This document shows positions 6,201 to 61,600 of a stretch of DNA of 64,000 bases, in pieces (the stretch's first letter is position 1; every line of letters begins with the position of its first letter). Source of the stretch: Gongronella butleri (taxonomy: Eukaryota; Mucoromycota; Mucoromycetes; Mucorales; Cunninghamellaceae); contig JAIWZP010000001.1 of the NCBI GenBank assembly GCA_025201375.1, positions 496,001 to 560,000 of the forward strand, given 5' to 3'. The notes beneath the pieces were generated by a model. That model made no database searches and had not been told where the DNA came from. It saw only the letters and a program-made list of their open reading frames with translations. Made by a program: the position numbers and the translations under genes.

Positions 6201-7381
6201 CCAGCATCTTGCAAAAGATTGCCGGTGTGGTTGATCGGCGCGTGGATGGCGTGATTTGTGATTGGCGCGCGATTCGCATTGGCGAGGATGGCTCCTTTTT
6301 TGGCGGTGTGTGGACATTGCCGACAACGACAACACGCACGCGCCAATCGCTGTACGCACTGCTTGAAAAAGTCACGTTCGAGGCACTCAAACGCGCACAA
6401 TTAGTCCCCAACTTTGAAACGCGCATCTCACTGGCGAAAAAGCGCGGGATCCCGCTGTTTGCCGACGCCAATCAAGCGAATAACGCCTCGTTTTCGTCGT
6501 TTTCACGCGATGGTACTGGTCATCCTAGTTTGCAACAACATCATCATCAACACCCGTTGCATCAGGTGCTAAGATCGACGGCGTCGGCACTGCATTTGAC
6601 GCCATCGCAATCGACCCCGCGCGAATCCACGTTTGATTCCTCTTCTTCTTCTTCTTCTTCGACGCAACAGCAACAACAACCAAGACTGGCCAAGCAGGCG
6701 AGTCTGTCGCAGCTCTTCCACTCTAGTGCAAAGCACCATGCGCCACTGCCGAGCCCGCCATCGCCGTCGCCGTCCAAATCCGTCAATTTGGCCACTCAAA
6801 AACCCAAATTGAACCCGCTCGATGTGTCGCCGGCCACGCTGCACCATCCGCAACAACAACATGCCAATCTGCAACACTCGGGCGAGCTCGTGCCCGCGGC
6901 AGCATCGCCATCGGGCCTGTTTTTCCAACAAAAAACCAATGCCACGCCCATCACCATGACCAATCCCTATGCCAAGCTGTCCAATTTCGTGCACGCGTAC
7001 ATTGTGCTGCAAGAGTTTTGCAAGGAATTGGCCGCCGTCGTGCTCGTGCGCCATTCGTCTGCGTACCCCGACGATAGTGCCATTGGTCCTGCGAAAAACG
7101 CGCGACAAACACGCATGGTCGCATGGCAACAAGACGCGCATCATGGCCCACATAGCCGCCATGGCGCTACGGTCACGTCGCCCAATGGGTTTGTCCTGTC
7201 GCCATCACCATTGGGTCCCGCCGGCCTGAATGGGCCCATGTCCGCCGGCCCCACGCCTCACGACAATGAAAAACGATGGCGCCAGCGCATGTCCGTGGCC
7301 ACCATGACCACGCACGACTGGAAACAGAGTTTCTTGGACCCCATTGACGAAAAAAGGACAACGGTCACGTCATTGGGATGA
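3268..7381 (+). CDS. FHIP: FHF complex subunit FHIP / RAI16-like protein (6 exons, 1198 aa)
   Basis: FHIP proteins bind FTS and Hook and link early endosomes to dynein. Exons 3268-3376, 3528-3712, 3777-4187, 4255-4416, 4521-5506 and 5638-7381 join in frame with GT-AG introns. The RAI16-like core runs from about residue 40 to 640: an N-terminal helical part (TPIPGALQNIIKLI), then RIHCLRFFCSLVSN, IPGETGEIAREAILFALRLL, and SFWEYLNDVARVADKRLM through VLLHAFLVVLM, all typical of the family. An acidic Ser/Asp insert (about 463-530) interrupts the core. The family's C-terminal helical block resumes at YDDYFHEARERFQFGILA and YEGLFLQQIFGLFSKMLEAP. A Q/S/P-rich region (about 890-1010) follows. The protein is longer than many fungal homologues because of these low-complexity insertions. 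ATG 3274 is an alternative start two codons later. Family assignment is confident from motif order; endosome transport is inferred from known homologues. Confidence 0.88.
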
Positions 7382-30365: not shown

Positions 30366-32988
30366 CTACAGATAATGCGATGTGGGGCTTGGGCTGATGC
30401 TCATGGCCATCATGCCTGCTGACATATTTTCCTCGTCCTCTTCATCTTCGTCTTCATCGTCGGACTCGTCTTCGTCATCGTCGTCGTCGGCGATCCATTC
30501 AAAGTAGATGCCATCAATGTACTTTCGGCTGCTTTCCAGCTTGTATGGGTCAAAGGGGAAAAATGTCTGCACAGTGTGGAGCAGGTTCTTAACACCGAGG
30601 TCATTCATGGCGTCAAGATTGACACCGGCAATCAGCATGTCCTTGTTCTTCTCCATGATCGAGTAAATGTACATGAAACTTGTTTCGTGGCTGATTTTGG
30701 CAAATTGGCGCACGACGGGCACAGAGCACACTTTAAGCGGGTACAGGCGATTCATGACCAGGCGCGGCATGTTGCGCAAACCGTGGCACCATTTCTTGTC
30801 GCCAGAGCCGAATTGTAGAGTCGAATAGTCCATTTCGTCCGAGGTGTCCGCGATTTTGCCATCGGATACGGTCGACGCGGTGCCATTGGAGGACGTGGCG
30901 TTCATGGGCTGGTCATTGTCGTCGATGAGGGCGTCCAGGCTGTCGTCCTGCACCGTGAGGTCACGCCACCTAAAGCAAAAGATGTACATAACCGCTTGCA
31001 GTGTCGCATAAAAGATCTCGTAGCGCTCGGCATTGACGGTTTGCGACACGTCGTCGATACCATACTTGACCTCGTAGTGGTCAAGCAGCTGCTCACAATA
31101 AGAACAGAGCACGGCAACCGTCTTTTGGATGGCGGCAGGCTCCATAAACTTGGCGCGCGCAACATAGGACGAAACGTACGCGGCAGCAGCAATACGATTG
31201 ACGCTGGGCCGCATGGGATCGGTGATCAGCTGCAGCAGGTGCTCGAGAAAGTGGTCGGAAAAGTGCGTGTCCATCGAGCACATGTAAAAGATCAAAAATT
31301 GCGTATAACGTGATTTTAGCGTCTTGATCACCGTGCGGTCAAAGGATTCGAGCAACACATTGTACATGTCGTGGCGCTCGTCGGATCCTTGCTTTTTGGC
31401 AACATGTGACAGCACCAGACTCATCATCGAGTCCAATTTGCGCACCATGGATCGCACTTTGCGTTGTTGCTTGGTTGTCATTTCCTTGGGCCGCTCTTCA
31501 TCTTGTTCTTCGTCGTCGTCATCGTCACGCCCATAGTCGCTGTCGACGTCGGAATCGTCGCCATTCATGTCGCCGTCCTCCCCAGATTCGCCAGACTCGC
31601 CGCCGAGATCTTCCATGTCACTGTCCACTTCGCTTTGATAGTCATCGTCAAAATTCATATTGTACGTGTCGAATTCTACGTCGTCATCCAGCTCGTCCAT
31701 CTCAATCTGGATCAGTGACTATCAAAAAAAAGAGAAAAAAAGGGCAAGTCAGCATCCAAAATCGACAAAAATGAGCCCATTGGATCTTACATCGACGCGG
31801 ACAAGGTGCTCGACAAGTAAGGTCATGATCTGCTTCTGAAGTACAGGCACATAGTTCATGATTTGCACGAGATTATGAACGTATGCGGCGTGGTCGGCGG
31901 TGCCACGCTTCTTGTAGGGCAAATGGCGCTGGATGCACACATACAGCGAGTTGTACGAGGTCGGAATCAGTTTTAGCACATCCTGGATGGCTTCGTGGTG
32001 GCGATCATACGCGACCGTGCGCGTCACGACGGCATAACTCGGCATCTTGGCGCCTAAAAAAGCAAAAAAAAAGGAAAAAAACAAGTCAAAACGAGTCCAA
32101 AGGCCAAAAAAAAAGGGGGAGCATACGATATCGGAAGCCCTCGACGAGCTTGTTGAGCACGGGGACAACGTAAAAGGCGTGTGCAGACACGAGGTTTTCA
32201 ATAAGGACAATAAAGGCATTGACGAAAATGCGGGGCCGCACGGCCCAGTCGATTTGGAGGACGACATTGACGAGATCGAGGCAATCCTTGTTGAGCTGAG
32301 ACACGCATTGCGACAGGCTGATGAGCCAAACATACAGCCGTGCAGACGAGGGCGTGTCTGCCGTGGTATACTTTTTGGAAAGCTCCGTGATCAGCTCATT
32401 GTACCTTAGCTTGCGTCCCTATCGTTCCAATGAATGCCTGAGTGAGCCCATTCCGTACAACATTGCACCTCCTTGCCGCAGCTCTCAGATGCCTCTCCTT
32501 GACTTTGCCACCATATACACACACACACCAAAAAAAAAAAAGAAAAAAAAATCGCCTCCCACGGCCATTCCACCCACACAATGCCCCACGGCCCGCCTTT
32601 TAAAAGTGACCAGCAAGGCCCCACGACCATCCAATGCCAGGCTTGCCGCAGGTTGTCTCGTTGTAAAATAGAGATCCAACGGATCTAGCGACAAAAAGGC
32701 AAAAAGTTGACCGAGGGGTCGCCTTGGGTGCGTTGCCAAATTTCGCAGAGTCTCTCTAGAGTGCTAGTGAGCGTGCTTTACCTGTGCATATTCTCGTAGG
32801 GCGCCTTGGATATACGATTTCATCATAAGCTTCAGGTGGTTCAGCTTTTCGCGGGAAAGGGCTTCCAAAGGCTCGTCTTCATGGTGTAGCAGCGACTTGT
32901 TTTTGCTGCCATCGAGGGAATCGCCTGCGACCATGCTGTTGTCGGTCAGGGGATTCATGAGAGGTGCTGCAGCTGACGGGACGGGCAT
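30366..32988 (-). CDS. RRN3: RNA polymerase I initiation factor Rrn3 / TIF-IA (4 exons, 704 aa)
   Basis: Rrn3 binds Pol I and recruits it to rDNA promoters in the nucleolus. Exons 32988-32782, 32418-32127, 32053-31791 and 31718-30366 join in frame. The acceptor of exon 2 could instead lie 9 nt downstream (same frame). Family motifs appear in order: AVRPRIFVNAFIVLIENLVS-type HEAT helices, YVHNLVQIMNYVPVLQKQIM then LVRVDSLIQIEMDELDD, a long acidic serine/aspartate loop (about 262-335), IAAAAYVSSYVARAKFMEP, RYEIFYATLQAVMYIFCFRW, MNRLYPLKVCSVPVVRQFA, and TFFPFDPYKLESSRKYIDGI near residue 637. A second acidic tail (about 655-685) closes the protein. The length is somewhat above the usual 620-650, explained by the acidic loop and tail. 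The gene is divergent from the Crz1-like gene 2.8 kb away. Confidence 0.92.
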
Positions 32989-48509: not shown

Positions 48510-48839
48510 ATGCATCCTCAGGCTGCGTACCACCCCAATGAATTCCCTGCGCCTGCAAAACTAAAAAAAGGAAGCCGCGTCGAGGCAGAGCGCATGATAT
48601 TCCAAATGATGAATGATCTGCAGCGCGTATCCATCGAGCAATGTAAAGAAAAATTTAGAATTGAATGCATTTGCCTCTCTCACCGGCCTGTTTCTTGATC
48701 TATTAGCCTCAGAGAAACCCGAGGACCTCGTCGCGCTCGATCCCAATGCCGCACACAATCACACACAGGACAGCGTCACTTTATGGCGCTTCCGCATTGT
48801 CCTCATTGCCTTTTTGATCATCACCGCTGTAACAAGTAA

Positions 48840-48874
<35 letters not shown>

Positions 48875-48954
48875 CATTTTTGCTCCATCTCACATTTTTC
48901 ACTGCTTCTTTCTTCATCTCAGTTACAATCGTCATCAATGAGTACATGAAATAA
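48510..48954 (+). CDS. Single-span C-terminally anchored small protein (3 exons, 97 aa)
   Basis: Exons 48510-48642, 48707-48835 and 48923-48954 join in phase 1 both times. Without splicing, two overlapping frames look like a frameshift; removing the 64-nt intron (GTAAAG donor, CTATTAG acceptor) resolves it. The protein has a soluble N-terminus with an amphipathic helix (RVEAERMIFQMMNDLQRVSI, about 23-42) and one hydrophobic span near the C-terminus (FRIVLIAFLIITAVTITIVI, about 71-90) followed by NEYMK, a tail-anchor layout. No named family recognised. Intron 2 carries a 30-base T run. It converges on the metallothionein gene with 106 bp between stop codons. Confidence 0.65.
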
Positions 48955-49060
48955 AAATGTCTCGTTCGGTGTATTTCTCATAAAGCAAACAAAAGATAGA
49001 TGATTTGTGTTTATTTTTATTTTTATTTTATTTTATTTTGCCCGTTGGAGGCATCTACAT

Positions 49061-49378
49061 CTACAGCTTGGTGGTGCAACACTTGCAGCCGTCCTTTTCA
49101 CAGGTGCACCCCTTGCCGGTGCCTACAATGCGCCAACGTAGGAAGGCGGGTAAGCCTCTTTAATTTCTCTTCATCTCCATTTTTCTTTACCTTGACAAGT
49201 GCACTCATTGGCGCGCTTGGCCTTGCAATGCGAACAATTGCATGTTTTATCGCACTTGCAAGGTCCGCCGCCCTCCTGACATCTATGATGCGCAGCGCAT
49301 TAGTCCAAAGCTAGCCCCTTTAGCAACCTTTGATGATACTTACAAGCACTGGTTGTTATCTTTGCATGGACATCCCAT
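49061..49378 (-). CDS. Metallothionein (3 exons, 62 aa, 16 Cys)
   Basis: Missed by simple ORF calling because it is split into exons of 35, 92 and 62 nt: 49378-49344, 49282-49191, 49122-49061. Donors are GTAAGT and GTAAAG, acceptors CATAG and TGTAG, and all phases agree. The product begins MGCPCKDNNQ, has CKCDKTCNCSHCK in the middle and ends CKCCTTKL. Cysteines fall at 3, 5, 11, 13, 20, 22, 26, 28, 31, 39, 41, 48, 50, 55, 57 and 58, mainly as C-x-C pairs; there are no aromatic residues and one His (30). This is the signature of a cytosolic metallothionein that binds Cu(I), Zn(II) or Cd(II) in thiolate clusters. The C-x-C-rich pattern would suit copper, but the metal cannot be fixed from sequence. 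A TATA box lies about 65 bp upstream and a GC-rich palindrome about 195 bp upstream. Confidence 0.88.
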
Positions 49379-49440
49379 TTTGAAGTTGTGCGGATTGATG
49401 ATCAAATCTTTGACGTTTTCTCAATTGCGGGGGGCATATG

Positions 49441-49446
49441 TTTATA
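49441..49446 (-). promoter_or_regulatory. TATA box of the metallothionein gene
   Basis: On the minus strand the sequence reads GCATATAAACATATG, with TATAAA 63-68 bp before the metallothionein ATG, the expected distance for an inducible fungal promoter. Confidence 0.55.
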
Positions 49447-49572
49447 TGCTTTTGCGAGGTTTCAGGCTCTTTCATGCGAAACAATGCTACGGCGCCAAAT
49501 CGAACTAGCCAATTTATTTCAGACGGAGATTTTTCAATGGCTCAGAGGTTCTGTGTTGCGCGTGCTGTGCGG

Positions 49573-49590
49573 GTGCGTCGCACGACGCAC
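49573..49590. promoter_or_regulatory. GC-rich palindrome upstream of metallothionein
   Basis: GTGCGTCG-CA-CGACGCAC, two perfect 8-bp arms with a 2-bp spacer, about 195-212 bp upstream of the metallothionein ATG. Candidate binding site for a dimeric regulator; not a known site I can name. Confidence 0.4.
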
Positions 49591-50610
49591 TCGTGGCCAC
49601 CCACAAAGCCAATTGGCTCGCTGATCAGCCGCCTCTGTCTAGTTTTTTTTTTGCGGTCTCTTGTTTCATCAAGCGTGAGATTCATCGAGAAGGTTCCCCT
49701 CAGCGTGATGCGTTGTGTGTCGGACGAGAGAATTGACGGGGCAATGGGGACCTCAAACGAGCCGTTTTGCATAAATGGTGAAAAAATCGAGCATGGAGCG
49801 GGTTCTGGGGAGCCATGATGGGACAAATACACTGAGAGTCAGCCTCAAAGAGATTGTTTCCGAGGTGGATTTGCCCAAAATGGGGTGGGGGCGATCAATG
49901 ACCAAGGAGACACGCAAATACAACAAAATAGAAGAAATACAACAAAAAAAAAGATGTTTTTTTAAGTCATGGTGGCACCTGTCGCCCTTGATGGGCAAGT
50001 CATCCAAAAGGACCTTTGCCAATGACAAGAGTGTCAGAGTGTGCGGGAAAGCGAGGACCCCGACGAGCATCAAGACAACCAGGCACCCGGGGGCGTCAGA
50101 AAAAGGAAATATGAAAAAAAAAAACGGATGACCGACTCCTTGCTTTTCCCATGGGCGACGCGCGTTGATGCGGGGGCCCCTCATTACATGCGACAGAGGA
50201 GCGGGCGAGGGTGGAAATCAATTGGCACGTCACCAGTGCAAGATGCGCAAATGCCATAAATCACGACGCACATTGCATGGATGGCATGAAATGGAGGGCA
50301 CTAAAGACGTTTTTATTACATAATTTACTTTTGGGCAACTTTTTTTTTGGAGGGAGGCAAGGGGGGGTAACAAGTGTGTGTCGAAAAATTTTGGGGGAGA
50401 AAAAGGGGAATATCGAATATTTACAAGGTGGGGCAAAGATATAAGGATAGTACATGATAAGAATACAGTGTGAATGGGCGCGTGTGCGTGACCGAGAGAG
50501 GTAGAGAGAAAATAATTGGGAAATGGGGTGAGCGAGGCAAGCAGCACAACGCGTCCAAAACGCAAAAAAAAAGAAAAAAAAAGCGCGTCGCGTCTTTTTT
50601 TTTTTTTTCT

Positions 50611-58602: not shown

Positions 58603-61600
58603 ATGTCTGTTCCTGTTGCCCCCACCCTTGGTGCGCGTTTGCCTGCTCCCGCGGCCAATGCCACCCCTTTGACCCTCACTCCCCGTTCCCCCTCTGCTCC
58701 CCATCGCCCCGTCACGGCTGTTGAGGACCCCAAGGATGTCACCATGGCCACTTTGGTCTTGAAGGATGGCTCCAACTTCCAAGGTATCTCTTTCGGTGCC
58801 GAAACTGGCAGCATTGCTGGTGAATGCGTCTTCCAAACCGGTAAGAAAGCTTTTTTTTTTCCTGAAAAAAAAAGACACGCCCTTTGCAAGGGTCAAAAAG
58901 TGGCTTGCTTTTTTTTTCTTTTTTTTTTTTTGCATTTCTGCTTTTTTTTTTTTTTTTTGATCGGATCAATGCAAAATGACTCACGCGAACTTGTTGGTTT
59001 TTCCTAATTAGGCATGGTCGGTTACCCGGAGTCGCTGACGGATCCGTCGTACCGTGGCCAAATCTTGGTGGTGACTTTCCCTCTTGTTGGCAATTATGGC
59101 GTGCCCGATCGCAACGAGATGGATGAGCTCCTCAAGGACATTCCCAAGTACTTTGAATCGAGCGAAATCCACGTGGCTGGTCTGATTGTCGGCAGCTACA
59201 ACCAGGACTATTCGCATTACCTTGCGTCGTCGTCGCTTGGCGCGTGGCTCAAGGAAAACAATGTTCCTGCGCTTTATGGCATTGACACGCGTGCCTTGAC
59301 CAAGAAGATCCGTTCCGGTGGTGTGCTTCTTGGCAAGATTCTGTTCCCCAAGTCTGTTGTGTCGTCGGTGCTCGATTCCGCTGCGTCTGCGCTTGGTTTC
59401 TCGCAAGATGCGGGTGCCGCGGCGCCTGGTGTGGATGATCGCTGGCTCAAGGACTACCAAGATGTTGCGTGGCACGATCCCAATGAGCGCAATCTTGTTG
59501 CCGAGGTGTCGCTCAAGGAGGCCAAGCTGTACTTGCCTGATCCGGCCAAGGCGATCAAGACGGCGTCGGGCCGCACGCTTCGCATCATTGCCGTGGATGT
59601 GGGTATGAAGTACAACCAGATCCGCTGCTTTGTGCACCGTGGCGTCGAGCTCAAGGTGGTTCCCTGGGACTATGACTTTGTTGCCGAGCCCGAGGACTCG
59701 TTTGATGGTCTTTTCTTGTCCAATGGCCCCGGTGACCCTACGATGATCCCCACCACGTTCAATCGCTTGCGCACCTTCCTCCAGCAAGGCAAAAAGCCCA
59801 TCTTTGGTATCTGTTTGGGCCACCAATTGCTTGCTCTCGCTGCTGGCGCCAAGACGATGAAGATGAAGTATGGTAACCGTGGCCACAACATCCCCTGTAC
59901 CAACCTGTTGAGCGGCCGCTGCTACATCACGTCGCAAAACCACGGTTATGCCGTCGATGCCGCGTCGTTGCCTGCCGATTTCCAAGAACTCTTTGTCAAT
60001 GCCAATGATGGCTCCAACGAGGGTATCATCCACAAGTCGCTGCCCATCTTCTCGGTCCAATTCCATCCCGAATCCACCCCTGGTCCCCGCGACACGGAAT
60101 TCCTCTTTGATGTCTTCATCAGCACCGTGAAGAAGTGCGTCGACGAGGGCAAGCTCTTGCCCGTCGAGATGCCCGGCGGCACCATTGAGGAAAACCGCAA
60201 GAAGCATCCTCGTGCCAATGTCAGCAAGGTGCTCGTCCTTGGCTCCGGTGGTCTTTCCATTGGCCAAGCCGGTGAATTCGATTATTCCGGCTCGCAGGCC
60301 ATCAAGGCCCTCAAGGAGGAAGGCATCTACACCATCCTCATCAATCCCAACATTGCCACCATCCAAACCTCCAAGGGTCTGGCCGACAAGGTGTACTTTT
60401 TGCCCGTCACCCCCGAGTTTGTGCGCAAGGTCATCAAGTTTGAGAAGCCCGATGGTATCTACGTGACCTTTGGTGGCCAGACCGCCCTCAATGTTGGTGT
60501 CAAGCTCAAGGATGAATTCGAGTCGCTTGGTGTCAAGGTCCTTGGTACCCAGATCGACACCATCATCACCACCGAGGATCGTGATCTCTTCAACGAGGCT
60601 CTTTTCCAGAGTAAGTTTTGAAAAAAAAAAAAAACGAAAAAAAAAGCAAATTGGCTGATCCTTTTTTTTTTCTTTTCACTTTTTTTGCAATCTAGTCAAT
60701 GAAAAGTGCGCTCAATCGGCGTCTGCGGTGACGCACGCCGAGGCCATTGCGGCGGCCAATGAGATTGGCTACCCTGTGATTTGTCGCGCGGCGTTTGCGC
60801 TCGGCGGTCTTGGCTCTGGCTTTGCCGACAATGAGGCGGAATTGGTCGAGCTTTGCAACAAGGCGTTTGCCACGTCGCCCCAGGTGTTGATTGAAAAGTC
60901 GATGAAGGGCTGGAAGGAGATCGAGTACGAAGTTGTGCGCGATTGCATGGACAACTGTATCACGGTGTGTAACATGGAAAACTTTGATCCTCTTGGCATC
61001 CACACGGGTGATTCCATTGTCGTTGCGCCCTCGCAGACGCTCTCTGACGAGGATTACAACATGCTGCGCACGACCGCCGTCAATGTGATTCGCCATTTGG
61101 GCGTCGTTGGCGAGTGTAACATCCAATACGCGCTCAATCCCTTCTCCAAGGAGTACTGCATCATTGAGGTGAATGCGCGCTTGTCCCGCTCGTCTGCCCT
61201 GGCCTCCAAGGCCACCGGCTACCCTCTGGCCTTTGTCGCTGCCAAGCTGGGTCTCGGCATCCCGCTCAATGAGGTGAAGAACTCGGTCACCAAGGTGACG
61301 TGCGCCTGTTTCGAACCCTCGCTCGATTACTGCGTGGTCAAGATCCCCCGCTGGGATCTCAAGAAGTTCAACCGCGTGTCCACCTCGCTCAGCTCGTCCA
61401 TGAAGTCCGTTGGTGAGGTCATGGCCGTCGGTCGTACCTTTGAAGAAACCATGCAAAAGGCCATCCGCGCCATTGACTACAACTTTGATGGCTACAGCAA
61501 GGTAAAAAGCCAAAAAGACTGGAAAAGAAAATGCAAAAAAAAAAAAAAATTGCAGAAATTGGACAAAATTGGCTAAAAAAAATATTTTTCTTTTCTTGTG

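Follow-up and report, generated by a model that had tools for sequence, protein, structure and literature searches.

A probable three-exon gene for a cysteine-rich protein

A window of 64,000 nucleotides of DNA from Gongronella butleri (Mucoromycota, Mucorales, Cunninghamellaceae) was analysed, and on the minus strand of positions 49061 to 49378 three exons were found to join at GT-AG sites into an open reading frame of 189 nt, which runs from ATG to TAG and encodes a product of 62 residues. The exon lengths of 35, 92 and 62 nt, the splice sites, the open frame and the total of 16 cysteines, which had been proposed earlier from the letters of the sequence, were an exact match to the coordinates on this strand. 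The parts of the gene and the elements flanking it are listed below.

49573..49590, no strand assigned: perfect inverted repeat GTGCGTCG-TG-CGACGCAC with 8-bp arms, ∼200 nt upstream of the ATG
49441..49446, minus strand: putative TATA box (TATAAA) at -68 from the ATG; one TATAWA in 350 nt, against 0.14 expected on both strands
49344..49378, minus strand: exon 1, 35 nt; ATG and following codons for MGCPCKDNNQC, then two bases of a split Leu codon; donor GTAAGT
49283..49343, minus strand: intron 1, 61 nt, phase 2, GTAAGT...TAG, with a branch-site-like motif
49191..49282, minus strand: exon 2, 92 nt; one base completing the Leu codon, codons for CQEGGGPCKCDKTCNCSHCKAKRANECTCQ and the opening base of a Gly codon interrupted by intron 2
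49123..49190, minus strand: intron 2, 68 nt, phase 1, GTAAAG...TAG, with a branch-site-like motif
49061..49122, minus strand: exon 3, 62 nt; GTGKGCTCEKDGCKCCTTKL (its first Gly codon shared between exons 2 and 3), then the stop codon TAG
49010..49037, minus strand: putative polyadenylation signal, judged from AATAAA-type repeats that start 24 nt past the stop codon

Translation of the joined exons gives the full product MGCPCKDNNQCLCQEGGGPCKCDKTCNCSHCKAKRANECTCQGTGKGCTCEKDGCKCCTTKL, in which cysteines occupy positions 3, 5, 11, 13, 20, 22, 26, 28, 31, 39, 41, 48, 50, 55, 57 and 58 (16 of 62 residues, 26%). Fourteen of these cysteines fall into seven C-x-C pairs, there is one CC, and the pattern at the C-terminus reads CxC-x4-CxCC; the product otherwise contains nine Lys, one Arg and one His and is devoid of F, W and Y. 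In the unspliced frames, retention of intron 1 would stop translation after 12 residues, and retention of intron 2 would give a shorter Cys-rich product ending soon after exon 2. Exon 2 sits within an open frame of 42 codons, as seen in a protein search of the organism's own genome.

The arms of the upstream inverted repeat, separated by two bases (GTGCGTCG-NN-CGACGCAC), occur once in the 33 Mb genome, and the repeat is a possible site for a regulator. Scans of 48950-49800 for sigma-70-type promoters and terminators, with models not made for fungi, found none, an Rfam scan of 48900-49800 gave no match and a tRNA scan with bacterial settings returned zero.

Metallothionein make-up and predicted function

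Metallothioneins are small proteins in which cysteine makes up roughly 15-35% of the residues and is arranged in C-x-C and C-C motifs, aromatics being rare or absent; they bind d10 metal ions via thiolate clusters and their expression is usually inducible by metals. The 62-residue product has this make-up, being small, with 26% cysteine, seven C-x-C pairs, one CC, a single His and no F/W/Y. Its nine Lys, the three short exons, the TATAAA at -68 and the gene-like codons (see below) add to the support for the metallothionein reading of the earlier note, and we consider it highly likely that the locus is a real metallothionein gene of G. butleri.

Transcription and splicing would yield an mRNA for the 62-residue peptide, which would presumably be cytosolic and whose 16 thiols may wrap metal ions in metal-thiolate clusters. 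Two clusters are predicted, one of nine cysteines (C3-C31) and one of seven (C39-C58), with the Cys-free linker KAKRANE between them. As far as can be judged from its sequence, the product of this small split gene of a soil mould would in all probability bind and retain metals, copper or others. Its most likely job would be the buffering and detoxification of Cu(I), Zn and Cd being the alternatives, and copper is put first on the ground that copper-thioneins are described as the majority of characterised fungal metallothioneins (PMC13107397).

Upstream of the gene, 1 kb was searched for regulatory sites. MRE, Cuf1, Mac1 and Yap-type sites were all absent; an Ace1/Amt1-like site occurred once, at -331, against 0.69 expected, and TTTKCKG twice, at -278 and -725, against 0.95 expected. 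Metal induction is thus without clear support from the upstream sequence. A metallothionein serving mainly for Zn storage or for redox and oxidative-stress buffering, and not for copper detoxification, would still be a metallothionein as proposed above; such a role is conceivable but rather unlikely. It would be in keeping with the fact that no copper-regulator site stands out upstream, and S. pombe Zym1 is described as a zinc metallothionein (PMC5812535), but the predominance of copper-thioneins among characterised fungal metallothioneins (PMC13107397) speaks against it.

Chance assembly and codon choice

The earlier note had regarded a chance assembly of 16 in-frame cysteines as very unlikely. 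Gene models were enumerated on both strands, with none to two introns of 45-120 nt (GT...YAG) and at most 75 residues. Cysteine count by itself was not decisive, another two-intron model of the window (6569-6951, minus strand) reaching 17 Cys, and the top counts in seven other 10-kb stretches of the genome were 19 (L005), 14 (L006), 11 (L007), 8 (L008), 12 (L009), 20 (L010) and 14 (L011). The spurious 17-Cys model runs antisense to a long frame with many Ser/Gln runs and is a warning against gene finding by Cys count in the G. butleri genome. The highest number of C-x-C pairs outside the locus was seven, in a model from a TG repeat in L010, followed by five in both the window with the locus masked and L006, and the best values in 100 shuffles were six C-x-C pairs and 14 Cys.

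Composition separated the locus from these models. At 14 Cys or more, the masked window and L005-L011 together supplied 76 control models; a CCC run is present in 72, and F/W/Y/I/L/V exceed 10% in the other four, all from L006. The filter for a metallothionein-like make-up was defined with the target already in view and required a minimum of 12 Cys and 20% Cys, no CCC run and at most 10% F/W/Y/I/L/V. Six of the 44,610 window models passed, all of them splice variants at the metallothionein locus, and no model passed among 44,464 from the window with the locus masked, 53,478 from L005-L011 or 6,808,296 from 150 dinucleotide shuffles, the genomic controls comprising one window and 70 kb. A branch-site-like motif is found in each intron of all six passing variants, and only the 62-residue variant has strong donors in both as well. 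When the limits on make-up were dropped and the Cys and splice criteria kept, one control model passed in L010 and one in L011, both of which are intronless polyCys frames. The claim of improbability therefore fails for the count alone, for which controls reach 17-20, and holds for the combined make-up filter, which no control passed.

Synonymous codon choice was nearer to that of known genes in the window than were background recodings of the same protein (P = 0.0128, 5,000 recodings), the training set being RRN3 together with two carbamoyl-phosphate synthase frames, 1,306 codons in all. GC3 was 0.65 in the metallothionein gene versus 0.69 in RRN3, and the codon score per codon was -0.04, which is below the 0.14 of RRN3 (itself in the training set) and the 0.22 of a further carbamoyl-phosphate synthase frame. 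Both introns are similar to that of RRN3 (72 nt, GTAAGA...TAG), the only independently known intron measured in the window.

RRN3, the RNA polymerase I initiation factor, is encoded by two exons at 30366-32045 on the minus strand and is identical to a 535-residue NCBI protein of G. butleri, the window segment showing 100% identity over 444 residues. The frame at 59014-60621 on the plus strand encodes the small-chain, GATase and large-chain pre-ATP-grasp domains of carbamoyl-phosphate synthase, and the frames after 60621 up to 62944 on the same strand have the appearance of further large-chain exons.

A chance origin of the Cys-rich spliced frame, from non-coding or antisense sequence and comparable to the polyCys readings at other places in the genome, is in our judgement very unlikely. 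Cysteine counts are exceeded in the window, in L005 and in L010, seven C-x-C pairs also occur in one of the seven stretches and no homologue was found for the spliced protein, all of which would suit such an origin, but once CCC runs and an excess of F/W/Y/I/L/V are excluded no control model matches the product, whose gene has gene-like codon choice and strong donors in both introns.

Relatives and comparison with known metallothionein classes

A protein database search with the spliced 62-residue protein, covering proteins of ∼34-108 residues and dependent on shared five-residue words, detected no relative, and an alignment search to which two artificial bait variants were added gave seven candidates, none at E ≤ 10. 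The protein had no match in Pfam at E ≤ 10 and none in NCBIfam. The Pfam result is a weak negative, because the Neurospora crassa metallothionein, used as a control, also matched nothing; yeast CUP1, the other control, matched PF11403 at 2.9e-25. A PDB match to a fibronectin segment (E 0.27) was taken as chance, and two stretches of viral contigs that matched a pattern were not confirmed. Within the organism's own genome, a coarse first pass with the protein query, exon by exon, recovered only the three exons of the gene itself, queries with the N. crassa metallothionein (run without a positive control) and PF12809 returned nothing, and an intron-like pattern gave no matches. The gene is apparently single-copy as far as this coarse search extends. 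With no relative by sequence and no family model there is no evidence of conservation. The protein is absent from the database that contains the RRN3 of this species, and the gene is therefore probably unannotated in G. butleri; a longer alternative gene model would escape the search.

A real small Cys-rich protein without a metal-storage role, such as a fragment of a zinc-dependent DNA-binding CXC (tesmin/TSO1-like) protein or a disulphide-rich secreted peptide, is highly improbable: CXC domains are likewise rich in C-x-C and the Pfam negative is weak, but no family was matched there, the CXC core pattern and F/W/Y are absent, and the N-terminus MGCPCKDNNQ lacks, by eye, the hydrophobic run of a signal peptide.

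The metallothionein reading was compared with the named classes by cysteine spacing. The fungi-I (family 8) core was absent, both in the form C-G-C-S-x4-C-x-C-x3,4-C-x-C-S-x-C and in the relaxed form CxC-x5-CxC-x3,4-CxC-x2-C. Residues 11-31 read CxC-x6-CxC-x3-CxC-x2-C, which is the 7-Cys core of the N. crassa and Agaricus bisporus fungi-I type with one residue added in the first spacer. Small size, Cys richness, C-x-C pairs and the lack of aromatics are also common to this type, as represented by N. crassa, whereas N. crassa metallothionein is a 26-residue protein with 7 Cys and the product here has 62 residues and 16 Cys. The likeness to the N. crassa protein arises from Cys spacing (alignment P = 0.016 on permuting the spacers and 0.025 on full shuffling; 180 of 2,520 in a simpler permutation test), and the non-Cys residues add none (P = 0.46 with Cys fixed and the others shuffled). 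Homology to the Neurospora core was rejected as unproven, because the likeness in spacing is modest and was chosen post hoc and the other residues do not support it.

The heptaCys motif C-x4-C-x-C-x2,3-C-x-C-x4-C-x-C had no match in the 62-residue protein. This motif is described as the hallmark of agaricomycete metallothioneins (the AcMT, HcMT, LbMT and PiMT group), with AcMT1 departing from it by one residue (PMC12508003). Residues 48-57, which read CxC-x4-CxC, are identical in spacing to the last part of the motif in the long and short agaricomycete metallothioneins. The mushroom metallothionein gene AcMT2 is reported to have three exons and introns of ∼50 bp (PMC12508003), and three exons with short introns are thus common to AcMT2 and the G. 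butleri gene.

No Pfam match was obtained to the yeast Cup1 type (PF11403), and the central CCC motif described for fungi-IV (Yarrowia type) metallothioneins (PMC13107397) is absent. Neither the vertebrate beta pattern CxC-x5-CxC-x3-CxC-x2-CxC-x2-C nor CC-x-CC is present. A CxC-x3-CxC-x2-C block is found in the product, and vertebrate metallothioneins are similar to it in length, three exons, a Lys-containing linker and the two clusters predicted here.

The earlier statement that no named class shares this spacing withstood comparison with the full patterns tested, but it has to be qualified by the internal stretch that equals the Neurospora-type core plus one residue. From these comparisons the protein looks like a metallothionein by make-up that belongs to none of the named families compared; closer kin may exist among the Glomeromycotina, whose GmarMT1 and GintMT1 are described as metallothioneins of other early-diverging fungi (PMC8908265). 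GmarMT1 is reported to be upregulated on metal exposure (PMC8908265). The suggestion of a new fungal type, resting on a single sequence without relatives, is plausible.

Among the matches listed from mostly open-access literature on Mucoromycota, Mucorales and Gongronella, in the portions of text that were available, no metallothionein sequence from Mucorales was found described. Metallothioneins in this fungal group are hardly described, and the G. butleri gene adds another instance of a well-known protein kind and is not new biology. It could tentatively be viewed, at somewhat less than an even chance, as the first seen member of a Mucorales metallothionein type, with 16 Cys in two clusters (9 + 7) and a spacing outside the named fungal families, which would have been overlooked since it is split into three short exons. 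A mucoralean metallothionein with its own spacing would suggest that the apparent absence may in part be a gap in detection, to which the shortness of the exons, rapid sequence change and a Pfam library blind even to N. crassa metallothionein would contribute. Tolerance of G. butleri to 800 µg/mL Cu and 2,000 µg/mL Ni, as upper values, is reported in a review that credits it to chitosan and not to a metallothionein (PMC13421430). If the reading is true, such a metallothionein may add to the copper and nickel tolerance, and the gene offers a testable second explanation for metal tolerance in Gongronella. Its sequence may also serve as a seed for relatives in other Mucorales.

A second small split gene candidate lies at 48510-48954 on the plus strand, convergent with the metallothionein gene, with exons at 48510-48642, 48707-48835 and 48923-48954. 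The predicted protein of 97 residues has a hydrophobic stretch at its end and a weak, below-cutoff match to GET2 (E 0.034). The first intron of this candidate has the donor hexamer GTAAAG, as has intron 2 of the metallothionein gene.
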